Source: Bacillota bacterium (GTDB lineage Bacteria > Bacillota > Sulfobacillia > JACIYH01). From it: a stretch of DNA of 44,110 nucleotides. Where the stretch lies: positions 1-44,110 of the forward strand of contig JACIYH010000019.1 of NCBI GenBank assembly GCA_014360055.1. The letters run 5' to 3'. The position numbers and the translations under genes are program-made. Below the pieces are notes generated by a model. It did no database searches, was not told the DNA's origin, and saw only the letters and a list, made by a program, of their open reading frames with translations. Shown in pieces: positions 12,871 to 25,420 of the stretch. Every line of letters starts with the position of its first letter. Position 1 is the first letter of the stretch.

Positions 12871-13149
12871 CCCCCACTGCTCCGGGCCTGCAACTGAACG
12901 GGCACCAGGTCGTGATTGCGCTGTCGCATAGTCATTTCCGCGTCGCTATGCCAAGCACCTTCCCTCCGGGTTCGGAAAAAACAGTCGGCAGCAGTGCTAA
13001 CCGTGTACGGGTGGGGCACCGGCCCTCCAGAGGTGTCTACCCCAACCTTCGTGGTTGAACTGCTGGAGTGAACGCTTGACTTTCCCCGGGGTGGCCGCAC
13101 GGCAGGGAACAGCCCGGCCAAGAACGAAAATATAGCCGAGAACTTAAAC
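12871..13149. other. Gene-free intergenic stretch
   Basis: Divergent spacer between the sigma-54 activator and the hairpin leader of the first coiled-coil gene. I see no convincing coding frame. On the plus strand an AT-rich patch near 13128-13136 (AAAATATAG) could be part of a -10 region for the rightward gene, but no -35 box stands out. Confidence 0.4.
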
Positions 13150-13214
13150 GGCGATGGGGCTCGCTGAACGTTGCAGTGGCAACTGATGGCTCCTGGCAGA
13201 CACCAGGAGCCATC
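13150..13214 (+). promoter_or_regulatory. Tandem-hairpin leader element, copy A
   Basis: A 65-nt element upstream of the first coiled-coil gene. Hairpin 1: GTTGC (13170-13174) and GCAAC (13179-13183) with loop AGTG. Hairpin 2: GATGGCTCCTGG (13185-13196) and CCAGGAGCCATC (13203-13214), a perfect 12-bp stem with loop CAGACA. No U-run follows, so it is not an ordinary terminator, and no rightward gene lies upstream for it to terminate. A near-identical copy in opposite orientation precedes the paralogous gene. An upstream GGGGCT can also pair with GGCTCC of hairpin 2, allowing a competing fold. Confidence 0.65.
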
Positions 13215-13245
13215 TCTTGCTGTAAAAGTGGGGTGCTCCGGATTG

Positions 13246-14022
13246 GTGGCAGACAACATACTCATCGAGTTATTGCCCGAAGTCTCCCAGTGGGTCAGCC
13301 GGCTGACCCCGGCCTCTCTCAAGGAGGCTGTAGAACGTGGGGCCGCTTACCTCCTTGCTCCCCCGGAGTGTCCGCTGGACGACGAGCTGCGTGACTATGT
13401 GGAAAGTTACGTAGAGTACTCGGCCTTTGCCGCCCGCGTTTCCGAACTGGAAAAGGAGCAACAGAAACTGGAACTGCAGGAGCAGGCACTCGAGGCGCAG
13501 GCCCAAATCCTGGCTGGCGGGCAGGCGAAAGGCCGGGGAGTCAAGGAACGCAAAGAACCGTTCACGGCTGGGGAAGTTCAGGTCTGCCACCCCCGGAATG
13601 ACCGCGCAACTATCACCAAGACGCGGCCGTCCGCGACCCCGGCACCGGACCTGGTCCCGACCCACGTACAGTTTGCTCACGAGGGGAGCCACGGCGACCC
13701 CACCAACCACGGGTCCCGACTCGCCGAGCTGGCGCATCAGAAAGGCTGGCAGGAGCATGTCACGCTCCGCAACGCACTCACCTGCGCATTTGCCCTGCAA
13801 CGACTGTCGACCCTCGAGCGGGACCAAATCGCAAAAGAGATCGCAATGTTGGGCAGGCAGAGCGCCGTCCTGCGCTACCGCACGTGGGTTCTCCTGCAGG
13901 ACAACCGCATCATTCAGATGCACCTGGGGGGTCTGCGCGCCCGCGTGGCCCGGCCGGGCACCCCGGGCCCCCGGCCGGCTCTTCGGGCTGCAGCCAGCGC
14001 AACTCCGAGCGCAAGGCATTGA
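13246..14022 (+). CDS. Coiled-coil protein of unknown function, paralogue A
   Basis: I do not recognise a family. About 258 aa: an N-terminal helical part (NILIELLPEVSQW...), a strong heptad-type coiled coil (around residues 65-90, SELEKEQQKLELQEQALEAQ), a polar, poorly conserved middle, and a C-terminal helical domain with RLAELAHQ...LRYRTWVLLQDNRIIQMHL. The convergent gene on the other strand has the same architecture and clearly related ends. GTG 13246 is chosen (TTG 13243 also possible) behind GGGGTG; a frame extending back to 13171 would run through the hairpin leader and is less likely. The last 113 bases overlap the 3' end of paralogue B antisense. The Pro/Ala/Arg-rich C-terminus lies in that overlap. 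Confidence 0.7.
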   Translation: MADNILIELLPEVSQWVSRLTPASLKEAVERGAAYLLAPPECPLDDELRDYVESYVEYSAFAARVSELEKEQQKLELQEQALEAQAQILAGGQAKGRGVKERKEPFTAGEVQVCHPRNDRATITKTRPSATPAPDLVPTHVQFAHEGSHGDPTNHGSRLAELAHQKGWQEHVTLRNALTCAFALQRLSTLERDQIAKEIAMLGRQSAVLRYRTWVLLQDNRIIQMHLGGLRARVARPGTPGPRPALRAAASATPSARH

Positions 14023-14617
14023 TGTGCATTTCGGTAACCCGGTTGTCATGATCCTTGAGCCAGGTTTCAAATCTCAGGGCCGCGCAGCGCCCTCGGAGGT
14101 GAGGCAGGCGACGGGCCAGGTCGTCCTCGTCGCATTCCCGCAGGACGTGTGATGCATAGGCCACACTCAAGGCCTGGGTCGCCGCCTTTTGCACCTCCAC
14201 GCCCAGGTGCTGGGCCAGAGCACCCAGCCGATCACGGAGGTCCGCAGCAACGGGAATCACCAGCGCTTCCGTGGGAACTGCCAGTTCCGACCGCGGCCTG
14301 GGCGGCCCGGGGTCGCTGTTTTTGCCGTCCCTGAGTAGTTCGACCCGGAGCCGCAGTGCCTCTTCTTCTGCCTCCAATTTCCGCTGGGTTTGATCCAGAC
14401 GGCCGTGCATCACCGCCAGGAGAGCATACTCGGCGAAGGAGGCCAGGAACGCTTCTTTCAGCGAAGGGGTTTCACCACCGTCCTCGCGGGCTCCCAGCCG
14501 GCAAAGGCTCTCGACCCCTTCGCCCAACACACCTGCCTGCTGCTCCGACGCAAGGCCCTGGTACCACTGCGCTACCTCCGAGATTACTTCCACCCACAAT
14601 TCTCCCTGACCCTCCAT
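13910..14617 (-). CDS. Coiled-coil protein of unknown function, paralogue B
   Basis: 235 aa, no family recognised. It parallels paralogue A: N-terminal ELWVEVISEVAQWYQGL (A: NILIELLPEVSQWVSRL), then a coiled coil (residues ~75-98, GRLDQTQRKLEAEEEALRLR), a linker, and a conserved C-terminal domain RLGALAQH...LRFETWLKDHDNRVTEMHI (A: RLAELAHQ...LRYRTWVLLQDNRIIQMHL). No signal peptide or membrane segment. ATG 14617 has GGAGGGG upstream. Its leader carries the second copy of the tandem hairpin element, 125 nt before the start. The tail (EEPAGGPGCPAG...) is read antisense to the tail of A. Function is unknown; the shared leader suggests common control. Confidence 0.75.
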   Translation of the reverse strand: MEGQGELWVEVISEVAQWYQGLASEQQAGVLGEGVESLCRLGAREDGGETPSLKEAFLASFAEYALLAVMHGRLDQTQRKLEAEEEALRLRVELLRDGKNSDPGPPRPRSELAVPTEALVIPVAADLRDRLGALAQHLGVEVQKAATQALSVAYASHVLRECDEDDLARRLPHLRGRCAALRFETWLKDHDNRVTEMHINALRSELRWLQPEEPAGGPGCPAGPRGRADPPGASE

Positions 14618-14741
14618 GTCGACCCCTCCGAACTTCCGGGATGCCCGCCTCGAGCGTCCCCGCGGGTCAGCAGCGGCATAGCCGACTTGGTGCGCCCCCA
14701 GGTACAGTGCCTCCCAGGTGATTCCTCCCCCCCTTAAGCAA

Positions 14742-14807
14742 ATGGCCCCTGGCGTGTCCGCCAGGAGCCATCAGTTGCCACCGCAACGCAAGGCGGGCTC
14801 CATCGCC
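14742..14807 (-). promoter_or_regulatory. Tandem-hairpin leader element, copy B
   Basis: Inverted copy of the element at 13150-13214, read toward paralogue B. It has 9 substitutions and one 2-nt indel over 66 positions. Hairpin 1 keeps GTTGC/GCAAC with a changed loop base. Hairpin 2 is ATGGCTCCTGGCG / CGCCAGGGGCCAT with loop GACA; one A-to-G change turns an A-U pair into a G-U pair, so the stem is kept. The upstream GGAGCC can pair with GGCTCC of hairpin 2, as in copy A. Confidence 0.65.
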
Positions 14808-14971
14808 TATCGGGTTCGGGGGAGGTTTCTGCATCAAACGGCATTTATCCTTCCCGGAGCCCAAGCACAGCAGGTACCGGCACTTCACTCGTGACGATGC
14901 AGAGCACCGTCCCGTACTGAGGGGCCGTATGTGGGCCGGGCAGCCCGGTTCCTGTCGCCCGCGGTCAGGAT
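14808..14971. other. Intergenic spacer, nothing identified
   Basis: Between the leader of paralogue B and the end of the small membrane protein gene. I find no reliable promoter, terminator or coding frame. Confidence 0.4.
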
Positions 14972-15160
14972 CTAGGCGTCCTGCCAGCGGGAGCGGAGGC
15001 CGGTGCCAGGACGGGCCCTCCGTATGAGTCGCCGCAACCGGTAACGCAAGATGCGAAACCGCCAGCCCCGCACGAACCACACCGTCGCCACAGCCAGCAC
15101 CGCCATGGCCACGCCCGCCCCCACCCCGAGAACCGCCGCCATGAGAGAACCGGCGTCCAT
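14972..15160 (-). CDS. Small single-pass membrane protein, unknown function
   Basis: 62 aa with one hydrophobic helix (residues ~6-30, LMAAVLGVGAGVAMAVLAVA) followed by a strongly basic tail (RGWRFRILRYRLRRLIRRAR). The ATG at 15160 has an excellent GGAGGTGG ribosome-binding site 4-6 nt upstream, the main reason to believe it. Topology by the positive-inside rule is N-out, C-in. No family recognised. It lies between the P1 peptidase and the hairpin leader of paralogue B, both on the same strand, but a link to either is unproven. Confidence 0.5.
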   Translation of the reverse strand: MDAGSLMAAVLGVGAGVAMAVLAVATVWFVRGWRFRILRYRLRRLIRRARPGTGLRSRWQDA

Positions 15161-15337
15161 GGTGCCACCTCCGCGCGCCTTCCCTCTTCCTGGCGTAGCT
15201 CTCCCGTTCCCCCTTGCAAGCACGAAACCGGCCGCCGCTGGCCGGTTTCACCACTGCTCCCGGCAACCCTGGGTGACCACGCGGTGGGTCCCGTTCATCG
15301 CTCCAGCTCGGGGATTTCTATGTGGGTGACCTTACTT

Positions 15338-18624: not shown

Positions 18625-18699
18625 CCCCACGCAGCGGAACCCCCGACCGGCCACGGTCCGACCCCCGATCGTGGCGCCAGCGCCGCGGGGGCACGAAAA

Positions 18700-18727
18700 G
18701 GGTGCCCGGTGAACTCACCGGGCACCC
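18700..18727. terminator. Hairpin terminator shared by gpr and the SASP gene
   Basis: GGGTGCCCGGTGA (18700-18712) and TCACCGGGCACCC (18715-18727) form a long perfect inverted repeat. On the minus strand it is followed by CTTTTC, so it works best as an intrinsic terminator for the SASP gene; on the plus strand it would end gpr transcripts with a weaker pyrimidine tail. Confidence 0.8.
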
Positions 18728-18742
18728 TCTGCTCCACCCCGG

Positions 18743-21324: not shown

Positions 21325-22991
21325 TCCACCGATATGACGTAGTGGTGCAGGGGCTGTCCCCCGTAGTGCACCTCCACCAGGAGGTGGGGGTACCGTTCCC
21401 GCAGCCGCTCACCCAGGGCGGCGGCCACCGGAGCCTTTACGCCCGCCCCGTAGAACAGGGTGATGGCCGTGGTGTCTTCACCCGTGGCCCGGGCCAGCAG
21501 CGCCATGACCGCTTCCTCGGGGGAGGGGGCCGCCACCACCAGCTCGTCTTCCAGGAACCCCACCGCGTCCCCCTTGCGCACCGGTACCTGTCCCACGGCG
21601 GAATCTCGTACCGCGCGGGTGACCTGGCCCGTGCGCACGCCCGCGGCCGCCTCCTGCATCAGGCGGGCGTTCTCCTCGGGCGGGAGTTCCGGGTTGAAGG
21701 CCAGGGCCGCCGCCACCACCTGCGGGCCGGAGAGGGCGGGCACCACCCGCACGGGAACCCGCGTCAGGCTGGTGACCTGGCGCGCCACTGCCAGGGCGTT
21801 GGGGTGACCGGGCAGGATGACCACCTCTCGGGCGCGGGCCGCCCTCACCGCCTCCATCACCTCGGCGGCGCTGGGGTTCATAGTCGGTCCCCCGGGTACC
21901 ACCTCGACGCCCAGGCTGCCCAGTATGTCCCCCCAGCCGTCCCCGGGGACCACCGCCACCACCGCCAGCGGCACGAGTTCTTCCCGGGTCACCGCCGCGT
22001 CGGTGCCCCGGGACCGGGGCGACCGTCCCGGCACCTGCGCCCCGACGTCTCCAGGCGGCGCGGACAGCTGCCCGCGCACGTCCTCCGCACGTGCGGACAC
22101 CTGCAGCCGCATGTCCTCCACGCGAGCCTCCACCAGCCCCTCGTCCAGGAGCAGGGCCAGCACGCGGTCGGGATAGGCGGTATGTATGTGGACGCGCACC
22201 AGGTCTCCGTCTTCCGCCACTACCAGGGAATCACCCATGTGCCCCAGGGCCTGCGCGAGGCGGGATTGCTTCCCCTCCCCCCGCAGGGTGGCCACCAGGT
22301 CGTAGGGAAAGGCACCCACGTCCTGCCCCGGGGACACGCTTACCGGCTCTGGCTCCACCAGTTGAGCGGATCCCTCCTCGCCCACCAGGGCGGCCAGAAG
22401 TCCCTCCAGGATATAGACCAGTCCCTGGCCCCCGGCGTCCACCACCCCGGCTTTCTTCAACACGGGCAACAGGTCCGGGGTGCGGCCCAGGGTTTCACGG
22501 GCCCCGGCCCAGGCCTCCCGCAGCACGGCCACGGCGTCCCGGGTGCGCCGCCCTACCTCCACCGCCCGGCGGGCGGCCTCGCGGGCCACCGTGAGGATGG
22601 TGCCCTCCACGGGACGCACCACCGCCCGGTAGGCAGCCTGCACCCCTTCCTGTAGGGCCAGGCCCAGGTCGAGCCCGTCGGCTTCCCCCTTGCCCTCGAA
22701 GGTGCGGGCCAGGCCGCGGAAGATCTGAGACAGGATGACGCCCGAGTTGCCCCGCGCCCCCAGGAGCGATCCGCGGGCCAGGGCATTACTCATCTCCGCC
22801 AGAGAAGAAGATGACACCCGCTCCATCTCGGCCTGGGCCGAGCGCATGGTGAGCAACAGGTTGGTACCCGTGTCCCCATCTGGGACGGGGAAAACGTTGA
22901 GCTGGTCCACCTCGGCCCGGTACCTCTCCAGGTAGCGGGTGGCCAGACCGATCATGCGGCGCAGATCCCAACCCCCTATGCGTCCCGGCAC
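21321..22991 (-). CDS. fakA: Fatty acid kinase catalytic subunit FakA (DAK domain, YloV)
   Basis: 556 aa. FakA phosphorylates fatty acids bound to FakB for phospholipid synthesis. The N-terminal DhaL-like domain shows NVFPVPDGDTGTNLLLTM (ATP/Mg site) and GARGNSGVILSQIFRG; the C-terminal DegV-like half follows. A linker at residues ~300-325 (SARAEDVRGQLSAPPGDVGAQ...) is low-complexity and longer than usual. GTG 22991 behind GGGAGGG. Its stop overlaps recG, and asp23 lies 29 bp upstream. No fakB is in the window. Confidence 0.93.
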   Translation of the reverse strand: MPGRIGGWDLRRMIGLATRYLERYRAEVDQLNVFPVPDGDTGTNLLLTMRSAQAEMERVSSSSLAEMSNALARGSLLGARGNSGVILSQIFRGLARTFEGKGEADGLDLGLALQEGVQAAYRAVVRPVEGTILTVAREAARRAVEVGRRTRDAVAVLREAWAGARETLGRTPDLLPVLKKAGVVDAGGQGLVYILEGLLAALVGEEGSAQLVEPEPVSVSPGQDVGAFPYDLVATLRGEGKQSRLAQALGHMGDSLVVAEDGDLVRVHIHTAYPDRVLALLLDEGLVEARVEDMRLQVSARAEDVRGQLSAPPGDVGAQVPGRSPRSRGTDAAVTREELVPLAVVAVVPGDGWGDILGSLGVEVVPGGPTMNPSAAEVMEAVRAARAREVVILPGHPNALAVARQVTSLTRVPVRVVPALSGPQVVAAALAFNPELPPEENARLMQEAAAGVRTGQVTRAVRDSAVGQVPVRKGDAVGFLEDELVVAAPSPEEAVMALLARATGEDTTAITLFYGAGVKAPVAAALGERLRERYPHLLVEVHYGGQPLHHYVISVE

Positions 22992-24637: not shown

Positions 24638-25420
24638 TTATATTCCCGGCGCGGAAGCGCGCGTGCGCGGCGAGCCGGGCCCGGGTGGTGCAGCCGGGCG
24701 AGGCGGCACAGCCGCGGGCGGCGTGGAAGCGCGCGTGCGCGGCGCAGCGGGCCCGGGCGGCGCGGCGCAGGCCGAGGCACGTAGCGCCCTGATGGCGGCG
24801 GCGTAATCGGGCGTGCCGAAGACGGCGGTACCCGCCACCAGGATGGTGGCCCCGGCGCGGCAGGCCGGGGGCGCGGTGTCGGGGGTGATGCCGCCGTCCA
24901 CCTCGATCTCGCCCGCCCACCCCTGCTCCCGCAGGCGGGAAACCTGCGCCACCTTCTGCAGGGTGGCGGGGATGAGCGCCTGGCCTCCGTAGCCCGGGTT
25001 CACCGTCATCACCAGCACCAGGTCGACAAGATCGGCCACGTAGGGAAGTACATCGGGGGCCGTGGCGGGATTGAAGGCGACCCCCGCCCGCGCCCCCAGG
25101 TCCCTGATGGCGCCCAGCACGCGGTGCAGGTGGGGGCAAACCTCCGCGTGCACCGTTATTATGTCCGCGCCCGCCTCCCGAAAGGAGGCCAGATGGCGCT
25201 CGGGGTTGGCCACCATGAGGTGCACGTCCAGGGGGATGCGCGCCAGGCGCCGGATGGCCGCCACCACCTGCTGCCCCACCGTGATGGGGGGCACGAAATG
25301 GCCGTCCATGACGTCGATGTGCAAAAGGTCGGCACCGGCGGCCTCCGCCTCCTGCGCCGCCTCCCCCAGGCGGGCGAAATCCGCGGCCAGCAGGGAAGGG
25401 GCCACCTTCACTTCGTTCAC
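24638..25420 (-). CDS. rpe: Ribulose-phosphate 3-epimerase
   Basis: About 260 aa TIM-barrel enzyme interconverting ribulose 5-phosphate and xylulose 5-phosphate. Motifs: APSLLAADF, HIDVMDGHFVPP, DVHLMVANPERH, VMTVNPGYGGQ, EVDGGITPDTA and AGTAVFG. The C-terminal ~45 residues (after AIRALRAS) are an Ala/Pro/Arg-rich tail with PRTRAS twice, encoded by two similar GC-rich DNA segments at 24650-24780; it is absent from ordinary Rpe. GTG 25420 lies behind GGAGGG; several similar RBS-GTG units precede it, so the start is ambiguous by ~15 codons. Precedes spoVM. Confidence 0.94.
   Translation of the reverse strand: MNEVKVAPSLLAADFARLGEAAQEAEAAGADLLHIDVMDGHFVPPITVGQQVVAAIRRLARIPLDVHLMVANPERHLASFREAGADIITVHAEVCPHLHRVLGAIRDLGARAGVAFNPATAPDVLPYVADLVDLVLVMTVNPGYGGQALIPATLQKVAQVSRLREQGWAGEIEVDGGITPDTAPPACRAGATILVAGTAVFGTPDYAAAIRALRASACAAPPGPAAPRTRASTPPAAVPPRPAAPPGPGSPRTRASAPGI

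Follow-up and report, generated by a model that had tools for sequence, protein, structure and literature searches.

Two genes, A and B, lie tail to tail in the window, a stretch of 44,110 nucleotides from a Bacillota bacterium of the class Sulfobacillia, and their 3′ ends overlap by 113 nt, exactly as an earlier note on this DNA had stated (Table 1). The encoded proteins are paralogous, with 25% identity over 255 columns (E 6e-16). Each gene is preceded by one of two inverted copies of the same element: positions 13150–13203 and 14754–14807 are 85% complementary over 54 nt, and the match as a whole reaches 83.3% identity over 66 nt (E 6.5e-12, far beyond chance), which reproduces the ~83% first given for the two leaders. 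Elements A and B each outfold 200 of 200 dinucleotide shuffles (z −4.7 and −4.0), and the leader is constrained more strongly than the genes, as had been proposed. Elsewhere in the window, near-perfect palindromes and a diverged ~60-nt tandem duplication (82%) occur at 4–31, 18699–18728, 21982–22013 and 24647–24778.

Table 1. Predicted features of the A/B locus, in window coordinates
Feature	Position	Strand	Remarks
Putative fluoride riboswitch aptamer A (RF01734)	13141..13202	+	27.9 bits; pairing and covariation on 35 elements
Aptamer A P1	13150-13153/13162-13165	+	Pairing on 35 elements
Aptamer A pseudoknot	13156-13161/13188-13193	+	
Aptamer A linchpin-equivalent	A13186-T13194	+	
Terminator-like hairpin A and broken T tract TCTCTTGCTGT	13185..13225, arms 13185-13196 and 13203-13214	+	Folds; reuses pseudoknot 3′ strand
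Gene A, family member	13243..14022	+	Probable TTG start from alignment with A′; alternative GTG 13246
A/B 3′-end overlap, 113 nt	13910..14022		A-to-B fusion junction at 13947-13963 inside
Gene B, paralogue of A, orthologue of B′ on contig C7	13910..14617	-	ATG start behind GGAGGGG
hppA scar	14633..14717	-	~8 start codons without the TTG start codon, joined to internal piece 14633-14692
Terminator-like hairpin B and broken T tract TTTGCTT	14734..14772, 14772-14759 with 14754-14741	-	Folds
Putative fluoride riboswitch aptamer B (RF01734)	14755..14816	-	26.5 bits; 90% identity to hppA-preceding element
Aptamer B P1	14807-14804/14795-14792	-	
Aptamer B pseudoknot	14801-14796/14769-14764	-	

A default Rfam scan left both elements unreported, its sole report nearby being a c-di-GMP-II riboswitch, because both score under the cut-off of the right family. 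In a permissive scan, each matched RF01734, the fluoride (crcB) riboswitch, over its full length, with E-values of 4.4e-5 for element A and 1.3e-4 for element B; neither score (Table 1) reaches the Rfam gathering cut-off of 34 bits, which is an annotation threshold and not an anatomical feature. The earlier note had assigned the element to no known family; it belongs to RF01734 under the gathering score. The elements of other members of the gene family described below score 37–51 bits, and the window's own genome has six clear elements: two in the window, one on C7 and, at the end of contig C62, a series of three, of which the one preceding a HEAT gene lies above the cut-off at 40.8 bits. Both window copies hold the GAUG and CUGAUG (UGAUGG) cores as well as the linchpin-equivalent A and T, spaced like the A40-U48 pair described previously (PMC11077080), and every pair of P1 and the pseudoknot is intact in both. 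From this homology, the repeated leader can be read with near certainty as a known type of fluoride-sensing switch, and the window copies read as newly recognised members of a known RNA class. The gathering cut-off can thus miss high-GC fluoride riboswitches, and any catalogue of fluoride-regulated genes that relies on it is incomplete. The c-di-GMP-II-GAG riboswitch (15231–15313, minus strand; 41.6 bits, above cut-off) sits directly upstream of a small ORF (14972–15223) that looks like a protein with a single membrane span.

To examine pairing in the element, we aligned 35 copies from the window's genome, its congeners and more distant Bacillota using a model that contained P1 and P2 without the pseudoknot, so that the result for the pseudoknot was not built in. 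The four pairs of P1 are formed in 98.5% of cells, with covariation; the six-pair pseudoknot is formed in 98.6%, with compensatory replacements of G-C by A-U and of C-G by U-A and a covariation score that none of the 500 shuffles and no slid control reached; and P2 is paired in 61%, a low value that stems largely from misaligned columns. The E-values of model R1 for the elements from which it was built are circular and form no part of this evidence. In all 35 elements, the 3′ strand of the pseudoknot doubles as the 5′ arm of a long hairpin. The leader had been suspected of switching by way of an upstream G-rich segment that pairs with hairpin 2, and this is borne out: the pairings are mutually exclusive, the G-rich pairing being the aptamer pseudoknot and hairpin 2 the overlapping terminator. 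Such sharing of the pseudoknot strand between aptamer and terminator is established for this class, in which fluoride stabilises the A40-U48 linchpin and blocks invasion by the terminator (PMC11077080); the overlap had been noted earlier for the motif (PMC2864571). The remark that the leaders have no U-run holds for an unbroken tract, but a broken T tract follows each window hairpin, and many homologous elements of low-GC relatives carry TTTTT at the same place. Termination in the window is plausible, but with these broken tracts it may be weak, or control may be partly translational. No sigma-70-like promoter was recognised.

Searches of Pfam, NCBIfam and PHROGs returned no family for protein A or B. 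Searches with protein sequence only, blind to RNA, turned up relatives in two congeners and in three further genera within the class (6 of 154 genomes). Shorter relatives, of ~112 residues, occur across the phylum and align with the C-terminal half of A/B (hhalign E 1.4e-8); homology between the N-terminal and C-terminal halves of A/B is not demonstrable by sequence (hhalign E 0.24). A search of contigs with A alone gave no match, and one of genome contigs with a profile of the short relatives gave four loci (Thermoanaerobacter, Thermoanaerobacterium and a Clostridia bacterium). The members share a motif of roughly YSAxRFKxFxLxxDNxxxxMxLxGxxAEN. One apparent fusion to an antiporter motif (L061) was set aside, as it lies at a contig edge and has no Pfam match. 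The A/B family consists of undescribed coiled-coil proteins, unnamed in the databases searched.

All 22 intact members with readable upstream DNA have a fluoride riboswitch upstream on the same strand, an association about which the earlier note had asked. These members come from seven genera or more, Thermoanaerobacter and Thermoanaerobacterium among them. In the window genus these are A, B, A′, B′ (by way of hppA and DUF6062), one member in genome G001 and two in G002; members in G003, G051 and G070 are likewise riboswitch-led, as are twelve loci from Thermoanaerobacterium/Thermoanaerobacter-like and related genera, whose riboswitches all exceed the Rfam cut-off. The count leaves out G008, in which the riboswitch is downstream of a longer protein, and G355, whose contig starts too close to the gene; two genomes with a remnant or broken family gene (G544, G553) retain the riboswitch and are kept separate from the 22. 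At a density of ~6 riboswitches in 2.7 Mb of genome, a gene would have roughly a 1% chance of one on its own strand in the 5 kb upstream; by our own estimate, coincidence is ruled out even if only the seven genera are taken as independent. In G008 (L063 646–1632 and 2181–2271), the C-terminal motif of the family stands at the end of the longer protein; an MFS fragment precedes this protein, and a HAD-like gene and a fluoride riboswitch follow it. The list of Baker et al. 2012, reportedly the main one of fluoride-riboswitch genes, lay outside the literature searched, in which the link between the family and fluoride is undescribed; an earlier mention as unnamed targets is possible. Since, among the loci checked, it occurs behind fluoride riboswitches alone, the family is a strong candidate fluoride-resistance factor and an unexplored part of bacterial fluoride survival, and genes behind a known RNA class appear to be a blind spot.

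The operon partners that recur with the family are DUF6062, Zn-ribbon/HEAT or HEAT proteins, two kinds of MFS transporter, an Na+/H+ antiporter, USP, NUDIX, membrane pyrophosphatase, enolase, paired MutS-domain proteins and a dynamin-like GTPase; among these, hppA, antiporter, enolase, MutS and USP genes adjoin the same type of element. Because pyrophosphatase, antiporter, enolase and MutS genes are, like formate-hydrogenlyase-type genes, established targets of fluoride riboswitches (PMC11139923; PMC2864571), the neighbour set as a whole supports, by analogy, a reading as a fluoride island. The element also precedes hppA, HEAT, MFS, antiporter, DUF6062 and enolase genes with no A/B gene directly behind it. 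The earlier note held that occurrence before unrelated genes would make the element a plain repeat; it does occur there, but only as a riboswitch before other fluoride genes. Dynamin-like GTPase genes stand in several riboswitch-led operons (L088–L090, L093, L101, L049 5898–7790, L052 3336–5078), adjoining paired MutS-domain proteins, enolase or antiporter, and a literature search for fluoride riboswitches with HEAT-repeat or dynamin(-like GTPase) targets found no paper. At one locus (L095 4482–5056, minus strand), a group II intron lies between the riboswitch and DUF6062.

CrcB was not found in G000–G003, G051 or G070 by a search that recovered it from 10 of 14 control genomes, and it is present in 11 of the 13 other carriers, mostly Thermoanaerobacterium/Thermoanaerobacter-like. 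One CLC protein is encoded in G000, on contig C2, which has no fluoride riboswitch. Since no Fluc/CrcB exporter was found in the window's genome and two congeners, resistance there must rest on something else, and the islands' own MFS and antiporter genes are obvious candidates for such CrcB-independent resistance. A recurring MFS protein (…FADxTYEGARSxxGPxL…; L018 7822–8058, L048 10694–11932, L058 2–1186, L052 5764–7005) is found in or near fluoride islands, also where CrcB is absent, and is a candidate unrecognised fluoride exporter.

We modelled A together with 13 relatives in AlphaFold2 and obtained a model (pLDDT 83.8, pTM 0.77) in which a strand, two helices and a long helix are followed by a low-confidence linker and the same order again. 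As the model has just two strands, these should pair, as in a ribbon-helix-helix dimer within one chain, and A is probably a single-chain ribbon-helix-helix pseudo-dimer; the short relatives are predicted to be single strand-helix-helix units, one of which gave a poor model when folded alone (pTM 0.43). Foldseek found no significant match in the PDB for either predicted model. Weak structural matches link the fold to a chain of the F-plasmid relaxosome (Z 6.7), TraM (Z 5.6) and NikR (Z 4.5), and in sequence the right segment weakly matches the N-terminus of NikR (E 0.22).

These resemblances, together with the predicted strand pairing, raise the possibility that A, B and the short relatives are ribbon-helix-helix DNA-binding regulators that add a second layer of control to the riboswitch in fluoride operons. 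We regard this as rather unlikely: no single ribbon-helix-helix match is significant, the strongest conservation falls in the long helix and not in the DNA-touching strand, and the members are mostly acidic (pI 4.8–6.4; A itself 7.9), which would argue against DNA binding. On the grounds of acidity, helix conservation and adjoining dynamin, HEAT and transporter genes, we tentatively prefer, at somewhat less than even confidence, a role as coiled-coil adaptors for operon partners (HEAT, dynamin-like GTPase, membrane ion transporter) over one as regulators, enzymes or exporters. The narrower proposal that all three are dedicated fluoride-stress ribbon-helix-helix/coiled-coil adaptors that act alongside HEAT proteins and a dynamin-like GTPase induced by fluoride is more doubtful; if true, defence against fluoride would go beyond export and enzyme replacement to take in a module for membrane remodelling or scaffolding.

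Both halves of the locus have counterparts elsewhere in the same genome. Positions 13083–13963 match the riboswitch-A′ segment of C62 (80%), homology to A′ stopping at 13963; 13947–14634 match B′ on C7 (85%), homology to B′ beginning at 13947; the hppA scar is 84% and 85% identical to the start and the interior of hppA on C7; and 14695–14887 match the hppA riboswitch and first codons (84%). The genomic hppA scores 880 bits to PF03030 (membrane pyrophosphatase). These junctions suggest that deletions cut out the greater part of hppA and DUF6062 at one flank and, at the other, whatever genes lay between A and B, so that the two riboswitches now face one another; the direction, deletion here and not insertion there, is read from the truncated hppA pieces. 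The genes overlap because the last codons of A are read from the DNA of B's 3′ end, and a designed antisense role, which had been suggested for the overlap, is without support at what is a deletion junction. The ends of C62 and C7 (L018 7997–8058, L019 1–71) overlap by 71 nt inside a riboswitch-led MFS gene, with a 9-nt indel, which suggests either that these contigs are neighbours with an assembly error or that a second MFS copy exists.

Such a history could also mean that the window copies are decayed relics of fluoride riboswitches that no longer switch, with the pair nearing loss, given the dead hppA scar, the broken T tracts, the sub-threshold Rfam scores and the family remnants in G544 and G553. 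We consider this improbable, since neither copy has lost any pair of P1 or the pseudoknot, or the linchpin-equivalent A and T, and both genes are open, with dN/dS of about 0.27 for A against A′ and about 0.57 for B against B′. Origin by inverted duplication, or as a mobile unit, was rejected: the A and B lineages are older and already stand at separate places in congener G002, and the pair reads as a deletion product. Conversion between the elements, which had been offered to explain their likeness, is not needed, as element A is nearest the A′ element (85%) and element B the hppA element (90%), against 79% for A with B. That the locus is a self-contained unit made by inverted duplication, as first proposed, with a leader RNA or DNA to which its own proteins bind and which they control, is very improbable despite the co-occurrence of element and genes and the ribbon-helix-helix units that the proteins may contain, for the lineages are separate in G002, the element also leads genes other than A/B, and it belongs to a known ligand-binding riboswitch class, so that the signal should be fluoride and not the encoded proteins.

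With riboswitch homology, covariation, hairpin overlap, gene linkage and deletion scars established computationally, we hold with high confidence that fluoride riboswitches drive two paralogues of an unnamed family and that island deletions formed the pair. Each element would act as a fluoride riboswitch whose aptamer contains a 6-bp pseudoknot; when fluoride is lacking, the long hairpin would capture the 3′ pseudoknot strand and transcription would end, and with fluoride the pseudoknot would hold and the downstream gene be transcribed. The genes so switched on would be the two members of the riboswitch-linked family, placed tail to tail when deletions removed hppA and other fluoride-island genes and joined the island ends. 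From the sequence, we infer that the window leaders bind fluoride and, strongly, that fluoride induces them.

The proteins resemble ribbon-helix-helix proteins of the TraM and NikR type in their predicted strand-helix-helix units, which would pair through their only two strands, in A within one chain; unlike these, the A/B family is mostly acidic, has its motif in long C-terminal helices and gives no significant sequence match. The window elements share with the transcription-terminating fluoride riboswitch (crcB motif, RF01734) P1, the six-pair pseudoknot, the linchpin-equivalent A/T, the GAUG and UGAUGG cores, the overlap of terminator hairpin and pseudoknot strand and the neighbourhood of fluoride genes; they differ in being GC-rich, in scoring under the gathering cut-off, in their broken T tracts and in a target family absent from the fluoride target lists searched. 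Like the fluoride operon of Enterobacter cloacae FRM (ppaC, uspA, eno, gpmA, crcB, orf5249; PMC5533749), the islands described here are multi-gene, riboswitch-led and equipped with pyrophosphatase, enolase and USP; unlike that operon, which includes crcB, those of the window genus are without it, and the islands add A/B-family, HEAT, DUF6062, MFS and dynamin-like genes.
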